DNA of 64,000 bases from a virus. Below, one piece after another: positions 20,176 to 46,383 of the stretch. Location: positions 5,872 to 69,871 of the IMG/VR virus record IMGVR_UViG_3300029319_009496, one strand, 5' to 3'. Made by a program: the position numbers and the translations under genes. The notes under the pieces were generated by a model that saw only the letters and a program-made list of their open reading frames with translations, was not told where the DNA came from and made no database searches. How positions within the stretch are numbered: position 1 is the first letter of the stretch; each line of letters begins with the position of its first letter.

Positions 20176-20176
20176 T

Positions 20177-20755: not shown

Positions 20756-20763
20756 GATAAAAA

Positions 20764-21471: not shown

Positions 21472-21483
21472 TAAGGAACAAAA

Positions 21484-24093: not shown

Positions 24094-24100
24094 GTGTAAT

Positions 24101-25769: not shown

Positions 25770-26427
25770 TTATTTTACAAAAGTTCATGAACAGGCAATC
25801 ATTGATTATGCTCTTACTAATGATATAAAAATTAGAACAGAATTATATATTCAATTAATACAACCTGCCTTTAACGAAATGGTAGACAAAATTGTCTATA
25901 CATATAAATTTAATAATTTACCAAACATTGATTATCTTAAAGATGATTGCAAGCTATGGCTTATCACAATTTTAGACAAATATGACCCTAATAGAAAATC
26001 TAAAGCTTTTTCTTATTTTAGTGTTATAACTAAAAATTGGTTTATTCACAAAGTTAAACAAAACTCTAAAAAACTTAAAAGAGATTTACAATATGAAAAT
26101 CTAAACAATGAAACTGAATTAGAAGAATTTATTGTAGAAAATACTTATGAGCAAGATAGAGAAAAAAAAGAGTTTTGGGAACATTTATTTTCTGAAATGG
26201 ATAAATGGGAAAAAATGAAACTTCGTGAGTCAGAGAAAAAAGTATTAGATGCTATAAAGATACTTTTTAACAGCACTCAGGATATAGAAATTTTTAATAA
26301 AAAAGCTATTTATTTATACATGCGTGAAATTACCGGTTTAAATACAAAACAAATTGTTAATAACTTAAATAGAATTAGAAAAAGATACAGGATTTTTAAA
26401 GTAGAATGGGAAAAAGGAAACATATAA
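25735..26427 (+). CDS. Late-transcription sigma factor, T4 gp55-like
   Basis: The 230-residue protein has a basic N-terminus followed by a sigma region 2-like core: YLKDDCKLWLITILDKYDPN, KAFSYFSVITKNWFIHKVKQ. Then come an acidic linker and a C-terminal helical part ending in a helix-turn-helix-like segment (TGLNTKQIVNNLNRIRKRYR). The core matches the gp55 family of T4-like phages, which direct host RNA polymerase to TATAAATA late promoters. T4 gp55 is 185 residues, so this one is longer. It lies directly upstream of the virion genes it would be expected to switch on. Confidence 0.82.
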   Translation: MKKTRRPRKKNNYFTKVHEQAIIDYALTNDIKIRTELYIQLIQPAFNEMVDKIVYTYKFNNLPNIDYLKDDCKLWLITILDKYDPNRKSKAFSYFSVITKNWFIHKVKQNSKKLKRDLQYENLNNETELEEFIVENTYEQDREKKEFWEHLFSEMDKWEKMKLRESEKKVLDAIKILFNSTQDIEIFNKKAIYLYMREITGLNTKQIVNNLNRIRKRYRIFKVEWEKGNI

Positions 26428-26711: not shown

Positions 26712-29700
26712 TTGGCATACAAATTAAAAGGTTTTCTTCATGAAGGCTCTCGTGTAGCTGGTAATGATTTAGAATATATCCAAACAGCGCTAGATTATTT
26801 TTCTGCAAAAGAAGGTATTGAAGGCTATCAAATGATGCGTCATTTGGTTGACAAAACTTTTGGTAGAGATCAGGAAGAAAGTTCAAGACCAAGATTATTA
26901 GAAGTTGTTGATATTTTAAGTGGCCCAAACAAAACTGTTAGAGGCGGCGTTGGGCATGAAGCAGTTACAGCAGTATTAAGGCAGAAACTAGAGCATACTG
27001 ATGCATTTCATGAGTCAATAAAAAATAAAATTGTGATTACTGCAAGGTGTGTAAGATCTGATTTTATAAGAACACCAAATAGATTTTCAAAAGAACAAGA
27101 CTATCTTCGAAGAGGCACACTAGGTGTTTTTCTTTGTGCATCTACAGATTCTAAATTTAATAATTTGCGCCCCGGCGCTTATGTCTGGGGTAGTTTAAGA
27201 GGACAGACTGTTGCTGCGCTTGATGGTGGTTTTGCAGGAACTATTTTTGATGTTGCAACCAATGTTGGAAAAATAGCTGATGCAATTGAAGAGTATGTCT
27301 CATCAGTTAGATCTTTTAATAAAAAATGTAAAACATTTCGTCAGTTTGAGGGCCCAACTGCAAAACTTTTTGTTGGCTCAACTTTAGCAGATCCAAATCC
27401 AAGATCTTCACCAATATCTAAATTTAAAACTGTAATAAAGACTGGGCTATATGGTAATGGTACACCACAAACAAAATATCATTTTAATCATTGTTTGTTG
27501 AAAAGTGAAAAATCTTATAATTTTGATATTGTAGGGCCAGCTCCTGCAAAAGAAAATGCATTTATATGGATTGGACATTTAAGAAATAATGGCTTTTTAG
27601 ATGTATTGGATAGGCCAATTGGTCTAGGCAGAGAAACTATTATATATGCACCAATGACACTAAATATATCTGTTCCAATCGAAATTAAATATTATTTTCA
27701 TGACAAAGCAGGCTTTGGTCATGCATGGATAAACGGCCCTAACACTAGTGTTTCTGATTCAATAAATAATGTTCAGCGTGGTGGAAATGACTTTAAAGAC
27801 GTTATCGGCCCAGCAATAAAAGATTTAATAAAACAAAAAAGAAATTTTATACTTGTAATACCAGAAATGGCTTACTCTAGAGGCTTCTCTACAAATAATA
27901 AAAATATTTCTAGAATACAGACGTTAACCGATAATAATTTAGCTAGATCAACTGATGCAGCTGGTAAACAAATTCTAAGAGTTGTTATTCCGCCAGAAAC
28001 TGTCCCTGCAGTAAAAACTTATTTAAGAAAATTACCTGCAGAAGCTGTGGTTGAATATGGTGTTACTACTGCAGCAGGTGGTGGCACTAATAACGTTGGA
28101 GGGCTTCAAAAAAAACAAGCCAGTTTATCTAATTTAACACAAAAAACACATTTTAGAGAGCGGGAAACAGTTACTTTTGATGGCTCATACACTGGAGGTA
28201 ATTTTGGTGATTTCCATGTAGAAGTTCTAGAAGTGCTTGATGAACATTTAGGAAGTCAGGTTTCACAAAACATTGATTTTGTTTCAATAGTCGCACATGG
28301 AATGGGAGCAATAAATTTAGCATCCATAGTTAAAAATATGCCTAATAGTTCTGTGCATCGCGACGCTGAGGTTGGATTTAAATCTGTGCCAATAAAAAGA
28401 ATTGATTTTGTTGAAGATGGGACAGATTCAATTAGTTCATATCCTTTTGCAAAACATACTCCATCTTATACAGTATATGAGGATTATTTATTAGCAAAAT
28501 CAGAGGAAGGGTCTTATTTTGAATTTAATTATATAACAGAAGCAGGAACACAAGCAGGAACTGAGTTTTTTAATAAAATTGATGCTTCATTGCAGTTTAC
28601 TAAAAATAATAAACCAGAATCATCCTTGGGAGAAGCATTTACTATTCCAATAAATGGTGATTTAAACTTGCAAAGTAATATTAGTATGCATGCTATAAGA
28701 CCAACTAGGGGAGATATTTCAAAAGTATTGTATGCCTTTCCCATGGAAACAACCGCAACTAATTCAATTCAAGGACAAAGCAATAAACCTTTGTATCCTA
28801 AGTTACCAGATACTACAATTGCTTTAAGGCCAGGAGATTCGCTTGTTCCAGATCACGCCGGCGCCATGGCGTCAACTCCTTCAGAGGGAAAACTTAATCA
28901 ATATTCTTTGGAGCAAAATAATCTAAAAAATCTTATTGATAATTTTTCAGTTGTTTTAAATGATTGGAAAAATATGGACGAATCTGAGTTTTGTCAAGCA
29001 AACCCAACTTATTGTAAAATTTTAACTGAAGGGTCATCAGTAACTTCTGCCGGCGCCGGCACCACAATTAATGTTAATGTTGCGAGGCATTTTGAACTTT
29101 CAAAAATACAAAATAGTTTAAAAAAACATTATGAACATATTCAACGTTATTATCAATTAAAATATTTAATACAAGATGAGGAACAAATATTAGAATATAT
29201 AAATGATAAATCTGCCCTCAGAGAATATCAGAAGCAAAGACGAAAAGATTTATCAGATCAAAATTTGAAATTAGTAACCGATTATGACGCATTCGACCCT
29301 CAAAGTATTATTAGGATACATTTTCTTCCACTATCTGTTCTATCAGCCGTTGGTCCGCAAAGCGCAACTAGCGGTCAATTTTTAGGGCGCCCTGTCCCGA
29401 TTGATTTTGCGACCGCAAAACAGTGCTTTACAGCTGAACCTTTGCTTATGCCGCAAAAGACACAAATTTATCCTTTTGGGGACGTTGAAAATAATCCTGG
29501 CATGGTTGAAAAAATTCTAGAGCAATTAGCTATAGCCGATGCTCTGGACATAACAATCAATAGGCTTGACGATGCTATAGAGCGAGCTAGGCCTAGGCCA
29601 ATAACACAAACACCAAATTGTGATGAGCAGCCAATAGCAATTAGAGATTTAATAGTTCCATCATATGAGGTATCAAAATACAACACTAAGGATATATCCG

Positions 29701-30749
29701 CAACACAATCTCCATGTGCTGGAAAGACAATAAGAGTTGTTGGTGATTATGCTGCGTTAAAAACAATGATAAATTGGGCTCCGTCAAAAGTATCTCTAAT
29801 TTCAGCAGCTGAAAGATTTTCTACTAGCAAAACTGATCTTCAAGAAACTTTAGGGAAAACAAATCAATTTGACGTAGGTAGATTTTCTTATAAATGCCGA
29901 GGCCCTAATAATAAAATAAATCATAAAAAAAGTCCTGAGATTTGGAGCTGCATTACAGATATTATGAAAGAGTCTTGGGAGGCAGCATGTAATGTTTCTG
30001 GCTATGTTCCTTTTAAAATAACAACAGGCATTAAAGGATACCATGCATCTGACACTGGTGTTGTTGCATTACCTGGTGGATTATCTATTGACGCCTATGG
30101 ACTTTCAATTAATGTGGATCCTCATTTAACAGGATATAGTAACGATGGTGATCCCATATATAGTATTTTTACCGGCATGTGGACTCCTGGTTTTGTCGAG
30201 GCATATCAAGATCAATTATATGATTTAGGTATTTTAGATGACCAGCCTTTTTCAAGTTTTGGTGTTTCCGGAAGATATTTAGATAATGCGTATTCTGGCT
30301 TTACTGGCAGACAAAGAAGGTTGTCGCAAGATTGGAAATTTGCTACAGATTCTTACAGCGGCCCAGCAGGCGCCGAAGAAAAAGAGGAAGGATATCAAAA
30401 AATTATGCGAGCCGCAAAAAATAGTGTTATAGTGCCACCAAATGCTAATCCTTTGTTGTGGGTGTTAACATTTTGTGAAAGAAGTGGTATGAAATGGGGT
30501 AATGGTACTTTTATGAAAAAAAGACACAGAGGGACAAAAAGAGGCTATAGCATTGCCGGATTTGATATAAGAAATCCGGCACCTGAATCTTGGTCTCTTG
30601 ATGAACAAAATAAAATTGCTGCTATTTATGGTATAGCAGATGTTGTAGCAAGAGTTAACGCAATTTCTTGGCCCTATGACATTGACAAACACATGCATTT
30701 TCAATACTATTCTGGACCTCCGGTAATACCGTGGGAAGATATTCAATAA
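26712..30749 (+). CDS. Large virion protein with C-terminal M15-like peptidase domain
   Basis: The 1345-residue protein starts with TTG at 26712. GAGGA lies at 26700-26704, and an in-frame stop at 26706 excludes any earlier start. The N-terminal and central parts are strand-rich, like baseplate hub or tail proteins, but no family is certain. The last 270 residues follow the order of an M15-type L,D- or D,D-peptidase: FKITTGIKGYH, then SIDAYGLSINVD (1125-1136), then FCERSGMKWGNG, and DKHMHFQYY (from 1325). The usual zinc ligands in SxHxxGxAxD are replaced by Asp1127 and Asn1134, while His1327/1329 remain. The domain may be a structural relic or bind metal differently. It opens the virion module. 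Confidence 0.75.
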   Translation: MAYKLKGFLHEGSRVAGNDLEYIQTALDYFSAKEGIEGYQMMRHLVDKTFGRDQEESSRPRLLEVVDILSGPNKTVRGGVGHEAVTAVLRQKLEHTDAFHESIKNKIVITARCVRSDFIRTPNRFSKEQDYLRRGTLGVFLCASTDSKFNNLRPGAYVWGSLRGQTVAALDGGFAGTIFDVATNVGKIADAIEEYVSSVRSFNKKCKTFRQFEGPTAKLFVGSTLADPNPRSSPISKFKTVIKTGLYGNGTPQTKYHFNHCLLKSEKSYNFDIVGPAPAKENAFIWIGHLRNNGFLDVLDRPIGLGRETIIYAPMTLNISVPIEIKYYFHDKAGFGHAWINGPNTSVSDSINNVQRGGNDFKDVIGPAIKDLIKQKRNFILVIPEMAYSRGFSTNNKNISRIQTLTDNNLARSTDAAGKQILRVVIPPETVPAVKTYLRKLPAEAVVEYGVTTAAGGGTNNVGGLQKKQASLSNLTQKTHFRERETVTFDGSYTGGNFGDFHVEVLEVLDEHLGSQVSQNIDFVSIVAHGMGAINLASIVKNMPNSSVHRDAEVGFKSVPIKRIDFVEDGTDSISSYPFAKHTPSYTVYEDYLLAKSEEGSYFEFNYITEAGTQAGTEFFNKIDASLQFTKNNKPESSLGEAFTIPINGDLNLQSNISMHAIRPTRGDISKVLYAFPMETTATNSIQGQSNKPLYPKLPDTTIALRPGDSLVPDHAGAMASTPSEGKLNQYSLEQNNLKNLIDNFSVVLNDWKNMDESEFCQANPTYCKILTEGSSVTSAGAGTTINVNVARHFELSKIQNSLKKHYEHIQRYYQLKYLIQDEEQILEYINDKSALREYQKQRRKDLSDQNLKLVTDYDAFDPQSIIRIHFLPLSVLSAVGPQSATSGQFLGRPVPIDFATAKQCFTAEPLLMPQKTQIYPFGDVENNPGMVEKILEQLAIADALDITINRLDDAIERARPRPITQTPNCDEQPIAIRDLIVPSYEVSKYNTKDISATQSPCAGKTIRVVGDYAALKTMINWAPSKVSLISAAERFSTSKTDLQETLGKTNQFDVGRFSYKCRGPNNKINHKKSPEIWSCITDIMKESWEAACNVSGYVPFKITTGIKGYHASDTGVVALPGGLSIDAYGLSINVDPHLTGYSNDGDPIYSIFTGMWTPGFVEAYQDQLYDLGILDDQPFSSFGVSGRYLDNAYSGFTGRQRRLSQDWKFATDSYSGPAGAEEKEEGYQKIMRAAKNSVIVPPNANPLLWVLTFCERSGMKWGNGTFMKKRHRGTKRGYSIAGFDIRNPAPESWSLDEQNKIAAIYGIADVVARVNAISWPYDIDKHMHFQYYSGPPVIPWEDIQ

Positions 30750-30762: not shown

Positions 30763-32277
30763 ATGGCATCAAATATTAAAATAAGCGCAACTTCAACTTA
30801 TGTTGCTCCAGGAAAACCAACTCTATATACTTTTCATGTTATTAAAGATGGGCAAAATCAAGGCCCTCCATATATGACAGTAAGCCCAGAGGATGCAAAA
30901 TCATGGTTTAATGATAAGAAAAAAGAAGTTTTAGCACAAGATCCTAATGCGCAATTAAATGATAGTCCGCTAAGCTCTAGTGATCCTTTCACTGATCAAT
31001 CATTTATTGATACAGCTGAAGATGTTTCCGCCGGCGGATTTGAAGAAGTTGCTAGTAGAGATGCCCGAATGGCTGCAATGGACATCGATGGCGATGGTTT
31101 AGATGATATGGATTCTCCACCAGACCTAGAAGAGCGTGCCTTAACAGGACAGGAGTTATTAAAAAAATATCCTGAAGTAGCTAATGCTCCAGGCCCAAAT
31201 GCATTATCATCTTTAGGTGGAAAAATTAGTCAAAAAGCACAAGATTACAATACTCTAGATAGAAACAAGAAAAAAGTAATTGATGGTGTAACTCACGCTG
31301 ATAAACATAAATTAAATTTATGTGGTGTTTTTAATGCACCCAGGGTACAGACACGAGTTATTCCAAAAAAATGTGGGTCTGAAAATTGGGCCTTAGAGGG
31401 TGTTGATAATAATGCTTTTATTGTTGTAGGGAACGATCGTCCATTTTTACCTCATACTGGATATGGTGGAAAAGCTCATACGCAATGTGATAGTATTGAT
31501 ATTATTGTTGGTATGGGAGGCCACAACCCCATTAGAGAAATACAGGTTCCAGTTGAAGCAACTAGCGATACACAAACAACTTTTCAAACAAAAGAAATTG
31601 AAACAAATCCTAACTTTTTTCTTGACGCGGCAAGGATATACATATCTCAAAAAACTGACGTTGATAAAAATTTTGGTATAGGTGAATTTGGAAGATCTAG
31701 AGATTACCCTCCAAAGATAGATTATACAGATGAAGAAAATATAGGTAAATATGGTGGAAAATCAGCTGTTGCAGCAAAGGCTGACAACATTAGGCTAATA
31801 GGTAGAGAAAGCATAAGATTAGTTACGGGAACAGATGAAATTAATTCAAAAGGTGGTAGAGTTTTAGGTAAGCATGGCATTGAATTGGTAGCAATGAATA
31901 AAGTTGAAGATCTTCAGCCTTTAGTTTTAGGAAATAATTTAGAATTAGCTTTAAATGCAATTGTTGATAATATCATAGCTTTAGCTAAAATATTTGAAGC
32001 TTTTGTGCATTATCAAATGAAATATAATAGAGCATTACAAAAACACAAACATAAAACCCAATTTTATGGTTTAGATTCTTTGCCATCTTCTGAAGCAATT
32101 ACTGGTGGGATTCAATGTGACGTAGAGACTGTTATGAATACAGAAACATCTATTGTAAAACATATAACAAACTTACAAGGTTTGATAATAAATTTCTTGT
32201 CTCCTGCAAATGCTGGCGGAAAGAAACCTAGCCCACCCCCTACTTATATTTTAAGTAAACATAATAAAACTACATAA
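30763..32277 (+). CDS. Baseplate/tail structural protein with Ca-binding-like motif
   Basis: The 504-residue protein follows an AAGGA ribosome-binding site. It includes an acidic DIDGDGLDD at 107-115, which fits an EF-hand or thrombospondin-3-type calcium loop. A regular strand repeat KADNIRLIGRESIRLVTG lies near 339-356, of the kind seen in baseplate spike and gp5-type beta-helix regions of marine myoviruses. A helical segment with His/Lys (MKYNRALQKHKHK) and a Pro-rich tail follow. I infer a baseplate or spike component from these features and from its place between two large virion proteins and upstream of gp25/gp6. Confidence 0.7.
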   Translation: MASNIKISATSTYVAPGKPTLYTFHVIKDGQNQGPPYMTVSPEDAKSWFNDKKKEVLAQDPNAQLNDSPLSSSDPFTDQSFIDTAEDVSAGGFEEVASRDARMAAMDIDGDGLDDMDSPPDLEERALTGQELLKKYPEVANAPGPNALSSLGGKISQKAQDYNTLDRNKKKVIDGVTHADKHKLNLCGVFNAPRVQTRVIPKKCGSENWALEGVDNNAFIVVGNDRPFLPHTGYGGKAHTQCDSIDIIVGMGGHNPIREIQVPVEATSDTQTTFQTKEIETNPNFFLDAARIYISQKTDVDKNFGIGEFGRSRDYPPKIDYTDEENIGKYGGKSAVAAKADNIRLIGRESIRLVTGTDEINSKGGRVLGKHGIELVAMNKVEDLQPLVLGNNLELALNAIVDNIIALAKIFEAFVHYQMKYNRALQKHKHKTQFYGLDSLPSSEAITGGIQCDVETVMNTETSIVKHITNLQGLIINFLSPANAGGKKPSPPPTYILSKHNKTT

Positions 32278-32288: not shown

Positions 32289-35200
32289 ATGTCTAAAAAA
32301 CAAAAATGGGAAATATTTCAAGAAAAATGTTCTGATTTATATGATCGTCTTATCTTGTATGATAATTGGTTTGCCGTCAATTGGTATCCAGTTTTTGGTA
32401 TTGATAATTTTGGATCTATTATCGCCGCGACGCCACCTCCTCTACCGTCAAATCCATCAAACTTAGACTTAGTGCAACAAAGCTATTATAATGAAGCAGA
32501 GGTTTTAGCTAAAAGACTAAATTTTTTGGTTACAAACTATTTTCATGTTACTTATGACGCTGCAGGACAAAATATTAGTCCTCCAGGGTGGGAGTCAATT
32601 ATCTATTCTGACAACTGGATAGAAGAAGACTTCTTTTTAAACTACCAAGATACTGGGGGTCGTTTTTTCTGGACGAAAGATAAATTTCCAATTGAAGCAG
32701 ATGGTAATCAAAATTATGAAGATATTTTAGGAGATGATAGTGTATGGCATACAGAAGTTGGAGGGCCAATCGCAAATAGTTTATTAGAAGATATAAAGGT
32801 AATATTAGAAAATAAACTTGTAGATGCTCCACAAGAGTTTTATGAGAAATTTTTTGTTGGTTCAGATTGGTGGCCAGGCACAGAATCAGATTTTTTAAAT
32901 TTTTCTAATCAGCCTCCGCCTGATATATCTTTGCGCTTGGAAGATGTTTTAACAGCATCAGCACAATATTTAGCAGAACTTGGTCAATATGGCTTTACAA
33001 CTAAAATTGATATAGAGCCTGCGTCTGATACAACTGGCTTAGGTCCTGCAATAATTCCAGCAGATTCAAAATTAGAAGCGCAAATATCTTCTACTCTAAC
33101 AGCTAATTCGACTCATTATATTGGTTTTGCGCTCGATCCTGGTAGAGGTGTGCAGAAAGATCAATATTTTGTACCTATCAGGTACTCGCCATTTGATGAT
33201 CCTAATATTCAAGACGTAACACAAATGACTTGGGACAATGAAGACTATTCATTAATAAATGGTCGAGGAGAAGTTGAGGATGTCGCTACAACTGATCAAT
33301 ATGATTACGGTGGTGTGCAGCTTCCTTTTGGCTTAGGAGTTATTGTAACAGAAATAGTTCAAGGAAAATCTGGTGTGTGGGTAGGTTTTGTTGTTGATCA
33401 ACAAGATCAAAGATTAAACGAGAATCCTGTTATTGGAAATGTTCGAACTTATGAAGACAGAATTCAAGATGCTACAGATAATTACACTAAAATTTTATAT
33501 ACTAGACCTGAATTTCTAAGAGCAAAAGAAAGCACTGTAAGAAATAATCCAGACCCATACATTTCTTATGTTGAAGATTTATCAGCCGAAAGCGATGCAA
33601 GTGTATCACATTCTGCAGCACTTAGTTTAATAAAAGCCAATTTGCCGCCCGGGCTAGAGCCGATAGATCCTGCTAATAATAGAAATTGGCTAAAGATGAT
33701 TCCTGGTGAAGTCATAATGGATATTTTTGATTTTCAAGCTTATAATCAAGGTCTTAAAGAGATAGAAAGTCGACCTGAAAATCAAAAAATAGATTATGCA
33801 ACAATAATTGACACACCAAATTTAAGATATTCTACTGGTTATTTTTATTTTATAGTTGGTGAATCTTCAGTTAGTACCAGCGAGCCAGGCGTAGAAAGTG
33901 ATGCTTCAGCAGGAATACCGCCGGCCAGTCAAGAATCTATAACAGAGGCTAAAGATAAAGCCTGGGAATCTTTAATAAGATACTTTAATAAAGACACAGA
34001 TCTTGCAAATAAAAAATTATATGAAAAACTTTATAAGGATTATTTTGTTGTTGTTGATGTGCGTGTAAATACTGAAAGCACCAGCCCCAACAATCAAAAA
34101 GTGTTGTTTGCCATAAGATCAGATTATATTGACGCGCTTCCAGATTCAAAAAAACATTATTTGCAAAATTTTGATTCAGATAGTGAATTTGCAAATGGAA
34201 GAGATTATATGGTTACTTTCTATGCAGAAGAATTTGCAACGTCAATGACTGAAATTGCAGATTATTTGTACACCATAAAAGAGATATTTGATGAGGCTGG
34301 AACAGATTTAATTGTTAAAGATGCTAATGATAATGAATTTAATATGGACATAATCAATGGATTTTTTAATGCAAATGATACCTCTTCTGTAAGCGTTGGT
34401 GATTTTACAACACTAATATCAGATTTTCTTAGAAAGCAAACATTCCCTAGATCATCACAAAACAATATCTTATCAAAACTAATAAAACAAGCAGCTGACG
34501 CTATGGTGGCTCAAGATACTGGCGATGATGAAGCTACACCTGGCGGAGGGCCAGGATCTAGACACTTAATACAAATAGGCATTAGAGATAATGGTAAAAT
34601 TGGCGCTGGAGTAAGAAAAACTATTTCTTATATATTATTTTCACCAGACCCTCTAGCATTGATTGATGCAGAGGATAAATCACAAGTCTTTGATCAAATG
34701 TTTTATTTTGATCCGTATGTGTCAAATGAGGAGCTGCAAAATAAAGATCAGGGAGGAGTTCGACGTAGTGCCATACCATTGGTAATTGGCATTGATAATC
34801 TCAGAGAAAATTTTTCTGGTGTGTATGGTTCCATGGCTTTACATTATTTATATTCTTATTCAGGTATGATAGAATTTTTTGAGCGCGTCGGGCTTGATGG
34901 AGTTGGCTTAGGTGCTAAATTTGCAGACGATACCTTAACTGAAGAATTTGAGTCCGTCGATCCTAGCTCTTATGATAGCACACGAAAACGTGTTGATATG
35001 GTAGAGTTACAGAAAATTTTATCATTTTCTGTTCCTCCTTTAAGAGTTCATATATCTAAACAGCCAGAAACAGAAAAAACAGAACAAATTAATTGTCAAG
35101 AAATTATTGATCAATTAAACAGTTCTAGCAATGTGTCTGGTATTGAAGAACTTGAGTTGATGGAAAGGCTATACAATAGTCCAAAATGCAGAGAGTTTTA

Positions 35201-38200
35201 TTTTAATAAATTCAGTAGAACAACACCCGCCACAGATCCAGAAGCAACAAAAAGATCATTAGAGAACAAAGCTAGAAAATCTGATGAGGCTGCATTTTTG
35301 TCTGATGATGTTTTTCTAGGTTTCAAAAATTTCTATCAACAAGTTTTATTTAATATGGATATGGACGCAATTATAGCTTTGCTATTAGCGTGTATACAAA
35401 GTAAATTAGGTATACCATTAACAGCTGAAGCTATTTGTGAAGCAGCTATACTAGAACTTATTAAAAACATAGGTATTGATAAAGCCATGGCTATATTAAT
35501 AACTAATGCACAACAAGATCCGGAAAGATACGCCGCCTTATTAAATGAACTAGAAGAAAATAATGACAACATATATTCCTCATTAAACCAATCGGCATCA
35601 AATGTTAGGCCTAGTTATGCGAGCGCACCGATCGCGACATGGATGGCTATTGATGGTAGTTATGAAGCTAGCACAATCGCTGCTGTTAGACAATTAGAAT
35701 TGGGTGGCACAACGATTCAACTTGAACCTGGCCTGCGACCAGCTGGCGCTTCGGCCCCAACGACTTTATATTCTTCTGGAACAGATGAATTGTATGCATC
35801 AGATGGTATTGTAAATCCAATACTAGAAGCAGCTTACCCTAGTGGTCAATTTTCCTCTGGAGAAACCTATACATATTCTGAAATCGAAGCAGAAAGAGAA
35901 AGATTAAAACAATTAGGTTATTCGTCATCAGAAATTGACGCACTTCTAGTAAACAGAGGATTTTTACGTCCTGTCGCTACTCAATATGAAAGTGTTTTAT
36001 ATGGAGGTGGCGTACTTGATCCGCTAATAGATGCTACAAATAGTATTACAGATGGTAGGTTTGGTAATGCTGTCGCCGGCGCTAATCAGTTACGAAATAT
36101 CGGCGCCACCTTAAAAGATGCTAAAAGTTGGCTTAACTATATAAAAGGCATAATTAACTTACAAGAAATATGTGAATTGTTGGTGGGTTCACTTCTAGAT
36201 GGCTTAGAAGATTTATTAAAAGATCCAGCTGCATTTTTAACTGGAGGACTAGACGACTGGTTTGATGATTTTATTGAAAATTTAAAAAGAAGATTTTCTT
36301 TTCCCGAGCCTTCTTTTAAATTTCCAGATAAATTAAAAACTGATGATCATATTGGTGATTATGGTAAAAAATTACTTCAATTAGTTTTATCAATGATAGC
36401 AACAATTTTAGGTCAGATATTAAATTTATTAATAAAAAGAGCGTTAGAAAATTGTATAGAAGAAGCCGATGAAAATCAAGGGGCTGCTAATGATCCAGTC
36501 ACAGTTAATTCTTTACCAACTATTGAAATTCCTAATTTACGCTCAATGGCTCCGGTCGCAGGCTTAGACTTTCCAATTTTAAAAGATATGATAGATGACT
36601 TACTTGATAATTTAAAATTAGGTCAATTGTGTGCTCTTTTAAGAGGAGAAGCATCAAAGCAAACTTTGTATAATATTTTTGAAAGAATTAAAACTCATCA
36701 AGAAAATAAAACACAAAAAACGTATGAGTCACTTCTAGCACAAGGATTAAGCGAAGATGAAGCGTATGAAAACGCGAGACAGCATGCTAGATCAACAATA
36801 GAATCTTGGACAGATGTTCAAGCTATGTTTATACAGATCGGTTCGAACATGGATTTAGATTTTTGTAATTTTCTTACACCTACAACTTCATTTTTTACTG
36901 ATATATGTAATATTTTTTATGATGCAGATGGAAAAGTTTCAGCCTTGGAAGATCAAGGAATTCCAAAAGAACAAGCACAAGACCAAGTCAATAAAGATTT
37001 GCAATCTTTAAAGAATGAAATAATTGACTTGGCCCCAGCTCTTTTTCCTGGTAACGGCGGACTTTCAAATATTCTTAGTGCTGTTCCTGATATATGTGAA
37101 ATACCTGGAGCTTTTCAGGTACCTCCCGGTGTAGAAAATTCTATGAATCTCATAACCGATAATATTTTGGACGTTGCAAAAATTGCCTTAGTGCAGGATA
37201 TGAGTTCTTTGAAATTTTTCTCTGTACCGCCACGTGCAGTTTTAACAGCAACAGATCCTATGAAAATGAGAGAGGCTACAGAGTTATTTCAAGAAGCAAT
37301 TAGACGACCGTATCAAAAACAATGCATTGCTTGGATTGGACCTCATCGAGCTGGCTATTTTAACAGCACACCAAATTCAATCAAAGAGCATATAAAGTCC
37401 TATAAACTAACTTATGGCGCAAAACCAGAAGTACCAACTTTAGAGATGGATCAAAGAGTAGCGTATGGTGGCTTTTTAAAAGACGCTAAAACACAAACAC
37501 CAAATAATGAAGCTAAATTAATAAAAGATTATTATCTTAACGATAACGAATTACATGATTATTTGCAAGACTTTACTAGCACTGAAAGAGAAAATAACTT
37601 TTTTAAGCCTCTAACTATCTCTGTCGCTATAAATGATCCACAATTATATACTTTTAATCCAGAAATTTTTAATCTTGCTAGAGAAATTTTTATAGCAGCT
37701 AATCCAGATTTATCTCCACCTGAGTCTGTTGAAGAGCTTATTAGTGAGCCTTTTTCAAACAATGATAATCTAATTAATTCTATTATTGCACAATCACGAA
37801 GAGACATAAAACCACCTTATGCTCACTTATTAGTTTATGATATTAATCAATTATTTAAAAGATCAAAAACCTATAATCAAGGCTTGGCTTGGCCAAGATT
37901 AGATATTGCTGATGATGAAAATGTTTCTAGTGGGGAATATGTAGATCAGAATTCATATGATGACGGCGCCGTCGAAACCAAGCGTTTTGGTTATTTGCGA
38001 AAAGATTATTCACTGGATACTGTATTAAAAGACATAACTCCAAAAGAAGATCGTTGGAAAGCGATGTTTGAATATTATACTGGTTTCGACGCTGACGAAA
38101 TTACTTTTAAAGTCAGAGATAATCCAGGTATTGGTACTGGAGACAGATTACATGGTGATATTGAAGATATTAGTGGCCTGATAGAGAACACATATCCCTA

Positions 38201-41200
38201 TGAAGAAAAAGACTTTGTTGTTGCAATTAATGATGTCATTTCATCTAATTTAGCTATCATTGAAAATGAAGGCGGGGCGCTGCAGGGTGAAGATATTAGT
38301 ATTACGGAGCAAGTACAAGAACAAATTGGAGAAAATGAAGATACTGGAGAACCAATATTTCAAACTGTGACGGTAACAAAGGCACAATTGTCAAATTCAG
38401 ATTTACATAACTTAGCTTTATTTTCTAGATCGCCAGGGCTATATTCACTGCGTAATATAATGAACAGAATACTTCGTGCAAGTGATTCTGATGCTAATTT
38501 AAATATGTTTGAAACAAATGCTAATGACACAAATATTCATTTAAGAGCTTTTATGGAATTAACAGTCGGTGAGGCAATAGGTTTAACTCAGGAAAGATTA
38601 AATATTTTAACACCAAATTGGACCACGCCAATTGAAGCAATTGATGGTGTTATTTTTCAAAATGTACAAGGTCGTTTATATCCTGCTTATGTTGTATACA
38701 AAGAAACATTTATAGATCCTGCAGGCCCACTATCTTTAGATAATCCACAAAAAATGATAGAATATTTTTCTGGAGATGAAGATCCTGTCAATGATGCGTT
38801 AGTAAATTATTTATCTGATACATCTAATTTTCCACAATCTTTAGGCTTTGAAGATGCATCCTCGCCATATTCAAACGACGAACAAGAGTTTGATAAATTA
38901 GAACAGTATATAAATTATAACCCTAACACTCTAAGATACGAAATACCTAAATCTATGACTGTGGGTCCATCACTGGGCGCTAGCGCTACTAATCCTGCCT
39001 TAAGTCCTCATACTGCAGAATTATTAAATAGTTCTGTTGGAATATCAGCTGTATATGATTATTTTAGTCCAGCTAACTTAGAATATGGTGGTAGCGAGTC
39101 AGTTAATTCATTAATAACAAGCTTGGTATTAGAAAACAAATCAGATAGTTTAATATATCAAAACATTCCTGAAATTGATAGAAGAAATTATTTAGATCAA
39201 TTAGACTCTTTTAAAGACACATATAGAGTGCTTAAAGGAAAATTGACTGAAAGAGAAGGCTTTAATGTACCACCTGGAATTTTAAAAGATGATACATCAG
39301 TTGAATTAGAGCAGTTTGATTTTAATTTTTTGACTGAGGCTAGTGATGAAATACAAAATTTATTATCAGTAATTTATGGATATGATGAAAATAATCAACA
39401 GGAAGATTTTAATATAGCAAGAGCAGTTCAAAAAGATCTTGGTAGATTAAAATATCTTACCGAAGGTAAAAATGCGGTTGATATACCTCAAGAAATTAAA
39501 GATGAGCTATATGCTGTTCCCGACGTCGGATATAAAAAATTAAAATTTAATAGATTTAATAACCCTGAACTTGGCAGTAAGTCGACCTACAAACTTGATC
39601 CTTATAATTTTAAAGCTTTGGTTTTTGGCAAATTTTTGACTTATAAATTTAAGCAAATGTTTGACAGGTATAAATCATTTGAAAATACTACCGATTCTAG
39701 TGGAGGACATCTTCCAAAAACTCTACTACATAATGATGAAAAACTTCAATATATTTTAACAACTTATGGATTTTCATCTTTACAGTTTGCATATAGTAAT
39801 CAAATGTTTGCAAAATTAAGAAGATCTAGACTTCAAGATAGAAGTTTTATGAAAAAATTGTGGGATAAAGTACTTCAGTCCCCGCTTGGCTCTTCTGTTA
39901 ACCCCGCCTGTAGAGATATAATAGAACAAATAGGCGTACAAAGCAGAGATGATATTGAAAATTTAGAGACTGATTTTTTTGATCTTGATGAAGTAAAAAG
40001 AGAAATATTAGATTATTATAAAAAATCTTTGTGCAGAGATGTCTATGAGGGTGTGCCTGAAGATCAAAATGCAACCAGAATCGCTTTATTACACGGTGTA
40101 ATAAAATTATTAATAAAAATCTACACCTTAGAAATGTGTTTTGCAAGTATAATAGCATGGGATAGTTTTGATATCGAAGATATTTTTAAGACTGATTTGA
40201 TGACTAATATTATTATTAATAATATGGCTAAAGAAGCGAGAAAAGAACGAATTTCTAGTTTTGCCACCGAAATATTGAAAAGAGATTTAAATATTAAAAC
40301 TGATAATCAATTAGCAGATATGCTAAAAAATAAAAGTGCACTTGCATATCTTGTTTCAGATGCATCACGAAAAATATCATCAATAGTTAAAAACATGTTC
40401 AACAATAGTAATCCTTTACGTACTGGATTACAATTAGATATTTTAAAAAATTCTGATGAAGAATTTATTACTGAATACGGAAAAAAGATCGCTCCCGTAC
40501 AAGTAATTCATAATTCATCAATAACTTCATCCCAAGATCCTCTACTTTATAATTCTATTTATTTAAATTCAGGATATGAATATGTTGTCGATGCTAGATT
40601 AAAAGATAATATTTACACAATGAATTATGGTGCTGGAGAAAGACAAGATCTTATTAGACCAAGAGGTTATCGATATAATATATATAATATATCCGATAAT
40701 GGTGCAGGCGACATAGCGTCAAAGCATCTTAACGTTTATGGATTTAATGAATCAGCAAATGAAAAAGGATATAATTCAAAACACTTCTTACACTCTTTAC
40801 CATATAATTATTTTGAAGCTGGCGCTCATTGGAGCATAAGCTCTCCAGAACTTGAAAATGAGGATACAGTTGTAATACTAAATGACGAAAATTATTTTAA
40901 TCCTGACATTCCAGTTGTGACCACACTCGGATTAGAGCCGGCAAGAATTTATTCCTACTCATATAGTTTTATTTATGGCACACATCCTCTCCATTTGCAC
41001 GCTGACCAGACTGGAAGTGCTCCTGAACTACCATATAGTACAAAAGTAAAACATTATGCTTATAGGGCCCTGTCAGGCTTAACACCAGAAGATACTCCTG
41101 ATTTAGCAGAAGATTATGAATCTTTTATAAAAACAAATGATCTAATGGCAAGCTATCTTGGAAGGGCAGACGCATTTAATAAAGAAAATTATCAACATAC

Positions 41201-44108
41201 ACAATTTGGAAATGCCTATAATGGCGCTCTAGGTAATATGATTTTTCAACCTTATGTTTTTATAGAGGATTGGGAAGAGGAAGTCATGACCTCAGATACG
41301 TTTCAAGATAAATATACAACGCTAGTCTACAAAGAAACGCCTTTAGGTTCTTTTCAATTAGATCCCTGTGATGATGCTTATCAAATTGAAGAGCTGAAGT
41401 ATGGCGACTTCATAGAAGCATTTTTTGAAGAAATAAATGAATATAGAATGGAAAACAATGTTTTCAAATCATATATTTTTGGATATATTCCGCTTCCGGT
41501 TTGGAGTCATTTTTATAATCAAATGTTCTTAAAAACACTCAATAAAGAGGAGTATGAAGGTTTAAAGCTTATTTTTGATAAATTTGGACTAGAGCCTTTC
41601 TTTAAAAAAATATCATTTGGTATGAGAATGAGCTATTTAACAGCTGCTCCATTTAATCTAGAACATGCATCTTCTTTTGATTTAAAATTACACTTTAAAA
41701 GACATTTTGGCAAGGGAAAAGTCGACGCAATAGGCACAAAAGATTTTCCAGCGCATGGTTTGAAGTTATCGAAAACTCTTCTAACCCATCGTCCATATTA
41801 TGTTGATGCTAGCCAGCCCACCCAGGGCGCCCTTCCTGAAGGCTTAAGACCAGAGTTTAGTAAAAGATTTAAAATTTGTGACGAACTAAGTATACCAATT
41901 GTTGATGTTGAAAAACAATTAATTTTTGTAAAAGATGCCCGTGCATTTGTGATAGAAGGCACTAATGAACTAATTTCTTTAGATAAGCTAGGAGAATACT
42001 CTAGTGATACTTTAAATCTTTTTGGCACTGTGGAGCAAGATGTTGATGATATTATTTATGTTGAACCCACAGTTGAAGTTATAACACCAAACAATGAATT
42101 TTGTAACGAAGAAGAACAAGCCGGCTGCGGCCAAGTATGTAAAGAATACTTAGCAGCTTGGGAGGTATATGATCTGCTGCTTGCTGAAAAAATTCCACCC
42201 ACGCTTGATGATTTTAATCAGCGCCGTATTGGAGCCATTGATCAATTCACAGGTACAGGGAAACTTACTCAGGCTATGGATCTTATTAATGACGTTGCAA
42301 ACATAATGTCTTACAAAATCGATAGTGCTATTTATCCTGAAAACCCACCGGTTCATTTGTATCCAGATTATGGCCCGGATTTTGTACCTACACCCGGCGG
42401 TGGCGTTCCGCACACTTTTCTGCCAAATTCTGCAGGTCAGGGATTTATTATCGATGGTGAGAGCACACCCTCGGATTCATCCTATGTATCAGCAGGAGCA
42501 TCATATCAGTTTGTTGCAAATGTTCTTTTTGGCGACACCTATGCCAATAGCCCAGCTCCACCCACCGAAGTGGGAGAGCCGATAGGCGTAGGTGTTCCTA
42601 TTCTTGTTGCTTTGGCTAGCCCAGGAGAATATACTAATTCTTACGGTCAGCAAGCCCAGGTTGATCTTACAAAATTACCAACGTTAGAAAAAGTAGTAGA
42701 AAATTGGGCTCGTCTGCAGAATGAAATATTACAGGCGCATCCAGAAGATAATGTTCTGGCGACACCCAACGTAGCAGCTGTGAATCCTTGTCCATATACC
42801 ATAAGAGGCTATACCGGAGATGATGGCTCTGTAACTATTGAAACACCTGGCTATACTCTTGGCATAGATGAGGAGACAATTATTCCTCCACAGCTAGACA
42901 GTACTCAATCTTATCAGCTAAAAACTCTTTTAGAAAATGAAGACTCTTTAAGATCTTTAATAAATAATCCACATCAATTTTACTATGGCAGATTAGCTCA
43001 GACTTTGTTATTAGAACTTCAAGAAACTGCAGAGTTTAAACTTATTTTTGATCATCTATTACCTATGAGAAGATATATGGCTTTGGCATTTACTTATTCT
43101 GGAGATAGTTTGTCAAAGTTTGTACCGGAACCAACTGATATTTTAGATATTACAAAAGATAGACTTTCTGTGGCATATGATAGCATCTATAACGGATTGG
43201 ATTACCAATTCATAGATCCATCATTACGACAAGCAGTTAGAGACGAAATTGTGGCTGGTCAATTTGATTCTAGAGGCCAAAACCCAGACCTTACAAAACA
43301 AATTTTAGAAATTATACTTAAAACGCCATTAAGAATATTGAAAGGGTTTGTTGAGGTAACTGATCCAGCAATTATTTTTGCTAAAGCTATTATTGATGCA
43401 GCAAATGCTGTACAGCAAGCTGTTGTTGCTGGAATAGAAAGTGGCATAAGAATAACAAAGCAAACCACTCAAGCATTAAAAGATACCGCTTATTCTACTA
43501 TGAGAAATATAGAAATAACTGCAGCTACTACAGCTGGTATATTACCGGCAACAATTGATTCAACTTTAGGCGCTATACCAGATCCTGAATTTCCACAAGA
43601 TAATCAAAAATCACTAGCCGATTATATAACAATAGATATTGAAGATAAAGAATTTGTACAATGGGTTTTAGATGTCAGATCATTGCCACAACCACAGGCT
43701 AATGAGCTTTTAACACCTGAACAATTACAGTCTTGGGAAGATCTTAAACAAAGTGTTACTGATCTAAAATCAGCGCAAACTGAATATGTTGCTGCGAAAA
43801 AAACTTTTGATGATTTAGATACTGAATTAAAAACTGTTATTGCAGAATTAGAAATAAATTTAGCTGCAGCTAAAAAAGAATTGAAAAAGGTTTTTCAATC
43901 GCCATATTTGCTACCGGGCATGTGGTCAGCAATGCTGCCTTCAATGATGCCCCTAGGGGGCGGTTTAGTTCCCCCACCATTTCCAAGTTGGATATCAAGT
44001 ACCATTCCGGGCATGATATATTTAATGATTTTGTTTTTGGATACATGGGAAGAACAACAGCATAATTTATCTCAAGAAGAAGAGCTTGATTGTTCAGATG
44101 AACTTTAG
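32289..44108 (+). CDS. Giant virion-associated protein, 3939 residues
   Basis: One uninterrupted frame of 11.8 kb, the longest gene here. I find no enzyme motif. The protein is a mixture of acidic loop-rich and helical parts. Hydrophobic stretches lie near residues 1025-1040 (DAIIALLLACIQSKLGI), 1361-1385 (LLQLVLSMIATILGQILNLL) and 3878-3920 (a Met/Pro/Gly-rich segment ending PGMIYLMILFLDTW). A coiled-coil-like helix lies near 3830-3870. It stands just upstream of gp25 and gp6, so a baseplate or tail-interior role is likely. A tape measure is possible but would be expected to be more uniformly helical. Delivery of membrane-active segments on ejection is another possibility. Confidence 0.8.
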   Translation: MSKKQKWEIFQEKCSDLYDRLILYDNWFAVNWYPVFGIDNFGSIIAATPPPLPSNPSNLDLVQQSYYNEAEVLAKRLNFLVTNYFHVTYDAAGQNISPPGWESIIYSDNWIEEDFFLNYQDTGGRFFWTKDKFPIEADGNQNYEDILGDDSVWHTEVGGPIANSLLEDIKVILENKLVDAPQEFYEKFFVGSDWWPGTESDFLNFSNQPPPDISLRLEDVLTASAQYLAELGQYGFTTKIDIEPASDTTGLGPAIIPADSKLEAQISSTLTANSTHYIGFALDPGRGVQKDQYFVPIRYSPFDDPNIQDVTQMTWDNEDYSLINGRGEVEDVATTDQYDYGGVQLPFGLGVIVTEIVQGKSGVWVGFVVDQQDQRLNENPVIGNVRTYEDRIQDATDNYTKILYTRPEFLRAKESTVRNNPDPYISYVEDLSAESDASVSHSAALSLIKANLPPGLEPIDPANNRNWLKMIPGEVIMDIFDFQAYNQGLKEIESRPENQKIDYATIIDTPNLRYSTGYFYFIVGESSVSTSEPGVESDASAGIPPASQESITEAKDKAWESLIRYFNKDTDLANKKLYEKLYKDYFVVVDVRVNTESTSPNNQKVLFAIRSDYIDALPDSKKHYLQNFDSDSEFANGRDYMVTFYAEEFATSMTEIADYLYTIKEIFDEAGTDLIVKDANDNEFNMDIINGFFNANDTSSVSVGDFTTLISDFLRKQTFPRSSQNNILSKLIKQAADAMVAQDTGDDEATPGGGPGSRHLIQIGIRDNGKIGAGVRKTISYILFSPDPLALIDAEDKSQVFDQMFYFDPYVSNEELQNKDQGGVRRSAIPLVIGIDNLRENFSGVYGSMALHYLYSYSGMIEFFERVGLDGVGLGAKFADDTLTEEFESVDPSSYDSTRKRVDMVELQKILSFSVPPLRVHISKQPETEKTEQINCQEIIDQLNSSSNVSGIEELELMERLYNSPKCREFYFNKFSRTTPATDPEATKRSLENKARKSDEAAFLSDDVFLGFKNFYQQVLFNMDMDAIIALLLACIQSKLGIPLTAEAICEAAILELIKNIGIDKAMAILITNAQQDPERYAALLNELEENNDNIYSSLNQSASNVRPSYASAPIATWMAIDGSYEASTIAAVRQLELGGTTIQLEPGLRPAGASAPTTLYSSGTDELYASDGIVNPILEAAYPSGQFSSGETYTYSEIEAERERLKQLGYSSSEIDALLVNRGFLRPVATQYESVLYGGGVLDPLIDATNSITDGRFGNAVAGANQLRNIGATLKDAKSWLNYIKGIINLQEICELLVGSLLDGLEDLLKDPAAFLTGGLDDWFDDFIENLKRRFSFPEPSFKFPDKLKTDDHIGDYGKKLLQLVLSMIATILGQILNLLIKRALENCIEEADENQGAANDPVTVNSLPTIEIPNLRSMAPVAGLDFPILKDMIDDLLDNLKLGQLCALLRGEASKQTLYNIFERIKTHQENKTQKTYESLLAQGLSEDEAYENARQHARSTIESWTDVQAMFIQIGSNMDLDFCNFLTPTTSFFTDICNIFYDADGKVSALEDQGIPKEQAQDQVNKDLQSLKNEIIDLAPALFPGNGGLSNILSAVPDICEIPGAFQVPPGVENSMNLITDNILDVAKIALVQDMSSLKFFSVPPRAVLTATDPMKMREATELFQEAIRRPYQKQCIAWIGPHRAGYFNSTPNSIKEHIKSYKLTYGAKPEVPTLEMDQRVAYGGFLKDAKTQTPNNEAKLIKDYYLNDNELHDYLQDFTSTERENNFFKPLTISVAINDPQLYTFNPEIFNLAREIFIAANPDLSPPESVEELISEPFSNNDNLINSIIAQSRRDIKPPYAHLLVYDINQLFKRSKTYNQGLAWPRLDIADDENVSSGEYVDQNSYDDGAVETKRFGYLRKDYSLDTVLKDITPKEDRWKAMFEYYTGFDADEITFKVRDNPGIGTGDRLHGDIEDISGLIENTYPYEEKDFVVAINDVISSNLAIIENEGGALQGEDISITEQVQEQIGENEDTGEPIFQTVTVTKAQLSNSDLHNLALFSRSPGLYSLRNIMNRILRASDSDANLNMFETNANDTNIHLRAFMELTVGEAIGLTQERLNILTPNWTTPIEAIDGVIFQNVQGRLYPAYVVYKETFIDPAGPLSLDNPQKMIEYFSGDEDPVNDALVNYLSDTSNFPQSLGFEDASSPYSNDEQEFDKLEQYINYNPNTLRYEIPKSMTVGPSLGASATNPALSPHTAELLNSSVGISAVYDYFSPANLEYGGSESVNSLITSLVLENKSDSLIYQNIPEIDRRNYLDQLDSFKDTYRVLKGKLTEREGFNVPPGILKDDTSVELEQFDFNFLTEASDEIQNLLSVIYGYDENNQQEDFNIARAVQKDLGRLKYLTEGKNAVDIPQEIKDELYAVPDVGYKKLKFNRFNNPELGSKSTYKLDPYNFKALVFGKFLTYKFKQMFDRYKSFENTTDSSGGHLPKTLLHNDEKLQYILTTYGFSSLQFAYSNQMFAKLRRSRLQDRSFMKKLWDKVLQSPLGSSVNPACRDIIEQIGVQSRDDIENLETDFFDLDEVKREILDYYKKSLCRDVYEGVPEDQNATRIALLHGVIKLLIKIYTLEMCFASIIAWDSFDIEDIFKTDLMTNIIINNMAKEARKERISSFATEILKRDLNIKTDNQLADMLKNKSALAYLVSDASRKISSIVKNMFNNSNPLRTGLQLDILKNSDEEFITEYGKKIAPVQVIHNSSITSSQDPLLYNSIYLNSGYEYVVDARLKDNIYTMNYGAGERQDLIRPRGYRYNIYNISDNGAGDIASKHLNVYGFNESANEKGYNSKHFLHSLPYNYFEAGAHWSISSPELENEDTVVILNDENYFNPDIPVVTTLGLEPARIYSYSYSFIYGTHPLHLHADQTGSAPELPYSTKVKHYAYRALSGLTPEDTPDLAEDYESFIKTNDLMASYLGRADAFNKENYQHTQFGNAYNGALGNMIFQPYVFIEDWEEEVMTSDTFQDKYTTLVYKETPLGSFQLDPCDDAYQIEELKYGDFIEAFFEEINEYRMENNVFKSYIFGYIPLPVWSHFYNQMFLKTLNKEEYEGLKLIFDKFGLEPFFKKISFGMRMSYLTAAPFNLEHASSFDLKLHFKRHFGKGKVDAIGTKDFPAHGLKLSKTLLTHRPYYVDASQPTQGALPEGLRPEFSKRFKICDELSIPIVDVEKQLIFVKDARAFVIEGTNELISLDKLGEYSSDTLNLFGTVEQDVDDIIYVEPTVEVITPNNEFCNEEEQAGCGQVCKEYLAAWEVYDLLLAEKIPPTLDDFNQRRIGAIDQFTGTGKLTQAMDLINDVANIMSYKIDSAIYPENPPVHLYPDYGPDFVPTPGGGVPHTFLPNSAGQGFIIDGESTPSDSSYVSAGASYQFVANVLFGDTYANSPAPPTEVGEPIGVGVPILVALASPGEYTNSYGQQAQVDLTKLPTLEKVVENWARLQNEILQAHPEDNVLATPNVAAVNPCPYTIRGYTGDDGSVTIETPGYTLGIDEETIIPPQLDSTQSYQLKTLLENEDSLRSLINNPHQFYYGRLAQTLLLELQETAEFKLIFDHLLPMRRYMALAFTYSGDSLSKFVPEPTDILDITKDRLSVAYDSIYNGLDYQFIDPSLRQAVRDEIVAGQFDSRGQNPDLTKQILEIILKTPLRILKGFVEVTDPAIIFAKAIIDAANAVQQAVVAGIESGIRITKQTTQALKDTAYSTMRNIEITAATTAGILPATIDSTLGAIPDPEFPQDNQKSLADYITIDIEDKEFVQWVLDVRSLPQPQANELLTPEQLQSWEDLKQSVTDLKSAQTEYVAAKKTFDDLDTELKTVIAELEINLAAAKKELKKVFQSPYLLPGMWSAMLPSMMPLGGGLVPPPFPSWISSTIPGMIYLMILFLDTWEEQQHNLSQEEELDCSDEL

Positions 44109-44188: not shown

Positions 44189-44584
44189 ATGAGTTCAATA
44201 GGCCCTAAGCTTCCTTTGATGAGAGATACAACTTACGGATTTTTTCTTCCAGTGCAAACTTATGCTGAAGAAATACAGCAAAATTTAAAAAATCTTTTAT
44301 TAACTGGCCCGGGCGAAAGAATGATGAACCCTGACTTTGGTGTTGGCTTAAGGCATTTTTTATTTGAGCCTAGGCAGCATAGTGTTTCTTTAATAAGACA
44401 AAAGATTGATGAACAAATGAAAAGATATATGCCATTTATAAGAGCTTATTCAGTTCGCTTTAATCCAGGTACTTCTGCTATTGATCTGGAGGATTCAAAT
44501 ATTCTCTCAATAACAATCGCGTATGATGTTCCATCATTAAATTTATCATCAGAAATAGTTTTGTCTAGAGAGGATATAAATTAA
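44189..44584 (+). CDS. Baseplate wedge protein, gp25-like
   Basis: The 131-residue protein has the GPW/gp25 signature: EEIQQNLKNLLLTGPGERMM, then NPDFGVGLRHFLFEP. In T4 this small protein joins the wedge to the hub and has a lysozyme-like fold name only; in contractile tails it helps to nucleate the sheath. The start follows AGCAGGAG. It is two bases before the gp6-like gene, an arrangement kept in many myoviruses and contractile injection systems. Confidence 0.95.
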   Translation: MSSIGPKLPLMRDTTYGFFLPVQTYAEEIQQNLKNLLLTGPGERMMNPDFGVGLRHFLFEPRQHSVSLIRQKIDEQMKRYMPFIRAYSVRFNPGTSAIDLEDSNILSITIAYDVPSLNLSSEIVLSREDIN

Positions 44585-44586
44585 CC

Positions 44587-46383
44587 ATGTCAAAAAAACA
44601 AAAAAAATTAATAAGGTATACAGATAGAGACTTTAATAATATAAAAGAAAGTTTAGTAAATTATTCAAAAAGATATTACCCAACAATATTTCAAGATTTT
44701 TCAGAAGCCTCTTTTGGCTCATTAATGCTTGACACTGTATCGTATGTTGGTGATGTATTATCGTTTTATTTAGACTATCAAGTCAATGAGTCTTTTCTAG
44801 ACACATCAATTGAATATAATAATGTTTTGAGGCAAGGAGAACAAGTAGGCTATAAAGAGCCTCTAAAATCAAATTCATTTGGTGTCTCAACTTTTTTTAT
44901 TCTTGTTCCAACTGCTCCCAATTCTACACAGCCAGATACTAACTATTTACCAACTTTAGCAAAAAATTCAAAACTTTCATCACAGTCAGGTCAGATATTT
45001 ACTTTAGTTGATGACGTTGATTTTTCTCATCCAGATAATGAAATTTTAACTGCTACATCAAGAGCTAATGATGGTCAGGTCACCTCTTATGTTGTTAAAG
45101 CTTACGGAAAAGTCATCTCTGGAGAACTTAGGGAAGAATTGGTGACAGTTGGTGAGTTTAGAAGATTTTTTACTGCTACTTTATCAGACCCAAATATTAC
45201 TGAAATTGTTTCTGTTGTTGACACCGAGGGGCACGAGTATTTTGAAGTAGATTATTTATCGCAGGATACAATTTTTAGATCCGTTGTTAACAAAGATACA
45301 CAAAGTAGTCGCTATGCTCCCGAAAAAATAGTTACAACTTCTGTACCAAGAAGATTTGTTGTGTTTAATAAGTTTGGCCAAACAACATTAAAGTTTGGAT
45401 ATGGTTCTGAGAGCACTTTAAAAACAGAAAATATTTCACATCCCTCAAATGTTGTTTTAAAAATGCATGGTAGGGAATATGAAAAAGATGATAGTTTTGA
45501 TCCTTCAAAGCTTTTAACAACAGATAAATTTGGTATTGCACCTGCAAACACAACATTAACTGTAACTTATAGAACAAATACAATTGATAATGTTAATGTT
45601 GCTTCACAGGCACTTAATCAAGTTATACAACCATTTTTTATTTTTGGACCAAATGCAGATAATACTGATAAAATTACTTTAGTAAAAAATAGCATTGAAA
45701 CAGTAAATGAAAAATCAATCATGGGAGATGTTTCAGTACCAACTATTAATGAGCTTAAACAAAGAGTAAATGATATTTTTGCTTCACAAAATAGAGCTGT
45801 TACAATTAATGATTATGAAGCATTAGTATACAGATTACCAACAAAGTTTGGAAGTATTAAAAGATGTAAAGTATTAAGAGATCAAGATTCATTCAAAAGA
45901 AATTTAAATCTTTATGTTTTATCGGAAGATAACAATGGAAACTATATTACGACAAATCAAATTGTTAAAAATAATTTAAAAGTATGGCTTAATCATTATC
46001 GCATGATAAATGATACAATCGATATTTTAGACCCAAGAATTATAAACATAGGAGTTAATTTTACTGCAGTAGTTGATTATTCACAAAATAAGTTTGATGC
46101 GCTAAACGCTGGCATCACCGAAATACAACAAATGTTTGATCAAAAAATGGATATTGCAGAGCCAATTTACATAACAGAAATTTATGATCGTTTAAATAAT
46201 TTAGATGAAATTGTTGACGTGACTGATGTTGTAATACTAAATCTAAGTGGAGATAGATATTCAGACGAAACTTTAAATACTTCTGAATTTATATCAGCTG
46301 ACGGTAGAATTTTATATGCTCCTGAAAACGCAGTTTATGAACTTAAATTTTCAAATTTAGATATTGTAGGAACTATTAAATAA
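44587..46383 (+). CDS. Baseplate wedge protein, gp6-like (baseplate J family)
   Basis: The 598-residue protein has the N-terminal pattern of T4 gp6: IRYTDRDFNNIKESLVNY, then FQDFSEASFGSLMLDTVSYV and LSFYLDYQVNESFLDTS. Downstream come INDYEALVYRLPTKFGSIKR and a C-terminal LNPxI-like part with ITEIYDRLNNLDEI. gp6 dimers form the inner ring that controls the baseplate switch. The length is close to T4 gp6 (660). It shares its last base with the next gene. Confidence 0.95.
   Translation: MSKKQKKLIRYTDRDFNNIKESLVNYSKRYYPTIFQDFSEASFGSLMLDTVSYVGDVLSFYLDYQVNESFLDTSIEYNNVLRQGEQVGYKEPLKSNSFGVSTFFILVPTAPNSTQPDTNYLPTLAKNSKLSSQSGQIFTLVDDVDFSHPDNEILTATSRANDGQVTSYVVKAYGKVISGELREELVTVGEFRRFFTATLSDPNITEIVSVVDTEGHEYFEVDYLSQDTIFRSVVNKDTQSSRYAPEKIVTTSVPRRFVVFNKFGQTTLKFGYGSESTLKTENISHPSNVVLKMHGREYEKDDSFDPSKLLTTDKFGIAPANTTLTVTYRTNTIDNVNVASQALNQVIQPFFIFGPNADNTDKITLVKNSIETVNEKSIMGDVSVPTINELKQRVNDIFASQNRAVTINDYEALVYRLPTKFGSIKRCKVLRDQDSFKRNLNLYVLSEDNNGNYITTNQIVKNNLKVWLNHYRMINDTIDILDPRIINIGVNFTAVVDYSQNKFDALNAGITEIQQMFDQKMDIAEPIYITEIYDRLNNLDEIVDVTDVVILNLSGDRYSDETLNTSEFISADGRILYAPENAVYELKFSNLDIVGTIK

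Follow-up and report, generated by a model that had tools for sequence, protein, structure and literature searches.

The window, as we call the whole stretch of 64,000 nucleotides analysed here, belongs to a virus record of 81,704 bases (81.7 kb) and contains a baseplate gene cluster with one very long gene, hereafter the giant (Table 1). The same frame is recovered in the source record, and it corresponds exactly to the intact frame of 3939 residues described by an earlier sequence-only reading of this DNA. That reading also placed the frame 5' of gp25 and gp6, and both genes are indeed identified directly downstream (Pfam GPW_gp25 for the former).

Table 1. Features of the baseplate gene cluster and of the giant protein (coordinates in the window, residues numbered along the giant).
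Feature	Coordinates	Strand	Basis or remark
T4 gp55-like late sigma factor	25735..26427	+	phrog_234, 9.2e-5
Probable hub protein (1345 aa) with a role as cell-wall peptidase	26712..30749	+	position and weak similarity to the L069 counterpart
Spike-like protein, 504 aa, histidine-rich stretch (HKHKT)	30763..32277	+	position and motif
Giant protein gene, 3939 aa	32289..44108	+	ATG start, no internal stop
Variable N-terminal extension, residues 1-240	32289..33008	+	column occupancy 0.07-0.35; absent from most relatives
N-terminal alpha/beta module, about residues 454-854 (approximate range)	33648..34850	+	model of relative L036
Conserved hydrophobic helices, residues 1018-1050, with C1035 and C1050	35340..35438	+	family alignment
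Conserved helical core, residues 1280-1650, with hydrophobic segment 1362-1382	36126..37238	+	also in distant lineages
Conserved segment, residues 2440-2840, with hydrophobic stretch at about 2598-2622	39606..40808	+	alignment
Hypervariable insert, residues 3241-3540	42009..42908	+	anchors 3235-3583 spaced 37-627 aa
Most widely shared motif, residues 3573-3720, 'EF+LxFDHLFPM..YMAL' and 'ILKGFVEVTDPA'	43005..43448	+	
C-terminal Pro/Gly-rich hydrophobic tail, residues 3871-3939	43899..44105	+	among the most conserved parts
gp25-like baseplate wedge protein	44189..44584	+	Pfam PF04965, 1.5e-16; phrog_261, 6.2e-16
gp6-like baseplate wedge protein	44587..46383	+	phrog_219, 3.6e-16; about 31% identity to Mel-JY01 and immuto
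Large wedge-like protein, 1949 aa	48369..54218	+	hhalign 4e-7 to 2e-5

In all relatives the gene for the giant lies within the baseplate gene cluster, and the order sigma factor, hub lysin-like protein, spike-like protein, giant, gp25, gp6 and large wedge-like protein is constant across divergent lineages. The 504-aa protein, which would be the spike judging from its position and motif, is conserved in all lineages tested, among them a lineage that carries a short form in place of the giant (hhalign 5e-50). The counterpart of the 1345-aa protein in lineage L069, two genes upstream of the giant, contains a VanY domain (PF02557, 1.4e-7); this M15/VanY signature stands out clearly in L069, reaches only a borderline level in L096 and escapes detection in the window copy, which is a probable hub peptidase. 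Downstream of gp6, the 1949-aa wedge-like protein is the positional homologue of proteins of 1265-1400 aa in cultured phages (hhalign), and it is the first of two more very large proteins, of 1949 and 1874 aa (48369-54218 and 54255-59879), without credible PHROG match.

Other parts of the window deserve a brief description. An island of about 18 kb (6925-24931) holds some 20 sugar-related genes recognised by eye (glycosyltransferases, an aminotransferase, epimerases and methyltransferases), and a similar annotated island lies upstream of the baseplate module of phage immuto. Opposite to the other genes, 2749-3501 (-) encodes a lipoprotein-like protein with a trypsin-type GGSSGSP motif seen by eye, and a similar gene is found at 140060-140812 of G003, a 147-kb relative. 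The T4 late-promoter-like TATAAATA is no commoner than expected by chance and none is placed before the giant gene; promoter and terminator scans in general give results close to those of shuffled sequences.

The frame is real, and not an artefact, because the homologous frames are complete, base differences between the window and one relative peak at third codon positions (1727, 1322 and 2238 at the first, second and third), and all pairs that allow the calculation have a dN/dS under 1 (approximately 0.1-0.5 in close pairs), a pattern which indicates that the family is under purifying selection. The sequence-only reading had allowed for sequence errors that hide several genes; this option can be discarded with near certainty, given that 20 complete homologous frames, together with purifying selection, exclude both error and chance.

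The homologues were collected with the neighbouring gp6 as bait, which retrieved at least 80 viral contigs, about 50 of them with pieces of the giant; with a second scan that used the giant's C-terminus, the number of non-redundant homologues rises to at least 64. Among the homologues listed, 21 long ones have an intact 5' end and 20 are intact at both ends, and each of these 20 is one single frame of 2786-4260 aa. The sequence-only reading counted the protein among the larger phage proteins, but in its own family, the longest member of which has 4260 aa, it is not unusual. In divergent lineages the giants measure 1942-3484 aa; they retain the C-terminal motif and, with weaker similarity, the helical core, and the order of the two is unchanged. 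Judged by sequence, the giant is a member of a previously undescribed family of roughly 1,900-4,300 residues in uncultured T4-type phages. An open-literature search found no description of such a family. A 2025 study of one large lineage of aquatic phages counts gp25, gp6 and tail genes among the core genes, and the passages considered report no giant baseplate protein of this kind (PMC12619734).

Searches beyond the family return little. Single-sequence scans of viral and genome collections with the giant gave no matches, as they relied on exact patterns of 8 residues, which proved too specific, and tblastn of both halves of the giant, of the giants of other lineages and, likewise, a search with the spike-like neighbour gave nothing significant against phages; there is no detectable sequence relative of the giant in 50,697 phage records. 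No credible match was obtained for the window protein in Pfam, PHROGs, NCBIfam or PADLOC, and among 13 members compared with Pfam and PHROGs none gave a match above the cut-off or consistent across members, in agreement with the earlier statement that the protein has no known enzyme motif. Domain searches for a muralytic domain were equally negative, a profile search of the PDB returned only coiled-coil and chance matches, and neither a profile nor a fold match links the giant to wedge proteins (PHROGs; PDB fold search with the L036 models described below). Several sub-threshold matches were rejected: a CdiA-type toxin/tRNase in one of the 13 members (18.1 bits, cut-off 26.5), FeoB and other matches of this sort, and TIGR04320 at residues 3773-3870 (20 bits, cut-off 70), which is read as coiled-coil similarity. 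A signal of the PG_binding type was seen only in the divergent giant of L095, which has two PG_binding_1-like motifs ('DGIFGP.TE') at about residues 985-1105 and 1185-1300; the first reaches 15.1 bits (Pfam cut-off 23) and the second has no Pfam match.

The alignment of the closest clade reveals a scaffold, that is, a near-constant spacing between invariant residues, interrupted at a few places where insertions accumulate: ahead of residue 467 (hotspot of 29-466 aa), at 1709-1842 (87-439 aa), at 2625-2776 (113-418 aa) and at 3235-3583 (37-627 aa). Of the cysteines, thirteen are shared by over 80% of the long sequences. The hydrophobic segments that the sequence-only reading had noticed near residues 1025, 1361 and 3878 are confirmed and prove to be conserved, but they number about five rather than three (window residues ~1018-1050, ~1362, ~2604, ~3695 and ~3899). 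The helical core is the part common to distant lineages and, weakly, to short-form proteins of 631-664 aa.

Structure prediction in pieces, which had been proposed for the window protein, was carried out with AlphaFold2 on two pieces of L036 (2786 aa, the most compact close relative), corresponding to window residues ~454-1816 and ~2270-3939, and it gave partly confident models without a match among PDB folds at E 0.001. The first piece has a pLDDT of 62.6 and a pTM of 0.54, with a good N-terminal part (residues 20-400, pLDDT mostly 75-93). The C-terminal 1200 residues reach a pLDDT of 73.7 and a pTM of 0.71, with two long helices near the end, and we consider this model good enough to be trusted in part. 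It matches two predicted structures of viral proteins in BFVD, A0A516MAR9_2 (E 4.2e-6) and A0A516LBU8_2 (E 2.5e-4), which resemble it in fold over approximately 900-1000 columns but differ from it in sequence (10-11% identity) and in global TM-score (0.16-0.22). These entries may be cultured-phage members of the giant's fold.

Three related lineages have two shorter genes in the position of the giant: 634 and 211 aa in L064, 631 and 280 aa in L068/L097, and at least 664 and 517 aa in L085. The gp6 tree unites them in one clade (support 99) without fixing its position among giant-bearing lineages, and it fits both gain of the long form and reduction to the short form. In a single profile comparison, the larger short-form protein matches the helical core of the giant, collinearly, over 174 columns (E 8e-5), while its comparisons with the other segments give E values of at least 0.04 and a reversed control gives 0.017; it is probably homologous to the core. 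For the second short gene (211-517 aa), no segment of the giant gave a match. The giant probably grew by insertion. The suggestion in the sequence-only reading that several wedge or hub functions are combined in one chain is plausible, and it draws weak support from the presence of two short genes in place of one and from the weak match of the larger to the core.

Having described the protein and its setting, we consider that the giant is probably a lineage-specific, single-chain structural component of the baseplate, located in the hub/wedge region. As it lies in one gene run with hub/spike and wedge genes, it is probably made late, and the position of its gene suggests that it is present in the virion, where it would probably form part of the tail tip, placed between the spike and the wedge ring of gp25 and gp6. 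Its constant scaffold would consist of the N-terminal alpha/beta module, the hydrophobic helical core, a mixed segment, a C-terminal coiled-coil hairpin and the Pro/Gly-rich hydrophobic tail, and it would carry inserts that vary between phages; we infer both its oligomeric place and that these inserts probably face outwards. Most likely it would hold the spike/hub to the wedges and enlarge the baseplate. What counts for this structural role is the constant gene order, the existence of separate genes for the tape measure and the gp7-position protein, the match of the short-form protein to the core, a scaffold with hotspots, and the partly trustworthy C-terminal model of L036 with its two long helices. 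What counts against it is that the L036 models match no PDB fold, that baseplates can be built without the giant, since no homologue was detected in the cultured phages closest to the window by gp6, and that a plain scaffold would be expected to have fewer than five conserved hydrophobic segments.

The sequence-only reading also suggested delivery into the cell, for which nothing beyond these conserved segments speaks directly. An ejected or membrane-inserting giant is an unlikely proposal: when the tail contracts, the chain would be set free together with the spike, and a passage across the envelope would be formed or lined by its hydrophobic helices and its C-terminal tail. Membrane insertion would explain the conservation of the five segments, the long helices are followed by the Pro/Gly-rich hydrophobic tail, which is among the most conserved parts, and the gene adjoins the spike and lysin genes. 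However, the segments of the window protein peak at only 1.4-1.9 (Kyte-Doolittle, 19 aa), which is compatible with buried helices, and neither the PDB profile search nor the fold search reveals a resemblance to known pore proteins or to tape measures. The hotspots, with up to 627 aa between fixed anchors, bring to mind a peripheral adhesion platform whose variable inserts, presented on the scaffold, would recognise the host surface; this is rather improbable, as carbohydrate-binding, Ig-like and fibre domains were sought in 13 giants and none was found, and the gene sits with the hub and wedge core and not with fibres. A further idea, also unlikely, is that one polypeptide has absorbed and expanded the job of separate small baseplate proteins, its conserved hydrophobic helices and C-terminal tail being a membrane-crossing conduit during infection; to our knowledge, a baseplate of this design has not been described for T4-type phages.

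The two separate genes of the short-form relatives might also indicate that the giant is a polyprotein, cut into several baseplate proteins after synthesis. This is very unlikely, for the second short gene matches no part of the giant, no cleavage motif was identified, and conservation runs through the whole chain. Finally, a large, largely helical protein with hydrophobic segments recalls a tail tape measure, an assignment that is most improbable: G003 has, besides a giant of 3531 aa, a separate tape measure of 709 aa (phrog_167, 2.9e-12) that adjoins the tube and sheath genes, and no PHROG match was obtained for 13 giants. G003 also has its own genes for a hub (phrog_150), major capsid and terminase. 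The giant is not the tape measure, gp6, gp25 or the gp7-position protein, because each of these is encoded by a separate gene. The tail sheath of G003 has 1097 aa (L099:15775-19068 (-), phrog_23), much longer than the sheath of T4 (about 660 aa); enlargement in this lineage also affects tail proteins other than the giant.

What emerges is an unannotated and conserved giant family at the core of the tail-tip module of diverse uncultured T4-type phages, which suggests that a contractile-tail baseplate can be built or used in another manner. It also offers a natural size series in which growth can be studied, from 631 aa plus a second short gene, through 1,942-2,151 aa, to 2,786-4,260 aa.

The sequence-only reading held that T4 has nothing like the giant at this place, and no T4 counterpart was detected. 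The wedge proteins gp7, gp10 and gp53 and the hub proteins gp5 and gp27 of T4 are likewise products of baseplate-module genes, but they are far smaller than the giant and have no sequence match to it in PHROGs or the PDB. Closer to the window are phages immuto (Flavobacterium) and Mel-JY01 (Microcystis) and the uncultured LR756508, whose gp6 is 30-32% identical to that of the window and which share the gp25-gp6 order, the upstream spike-type gene and the downstream large wedge-like protein. At the giant's place they have only small genes of 139-371 aa or a 343-aa protein of endolysin/chitinase type, and profile comparison supports no homology of gp114 and gp115 of immuto to the giant. The 1949-aa protein serves as a control here, as hhalign detects its positional homologues in cultured phages, yet none for the giant. 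A further parallel is gp582 of Escherichia phage 121Q (L166:23467-33438), a virion structural protein of 3323 aa, thus also a giant, encoded next to gp6 in a phage with a T4-type contractile tail. It lies downstream of gp6, whereas the window giant lies upstream of gp25, and at the sensitivity used hhalign shows no homology between the two (E at least 0.37); its existence shows that giants do occur in T4-type baseplate modules.
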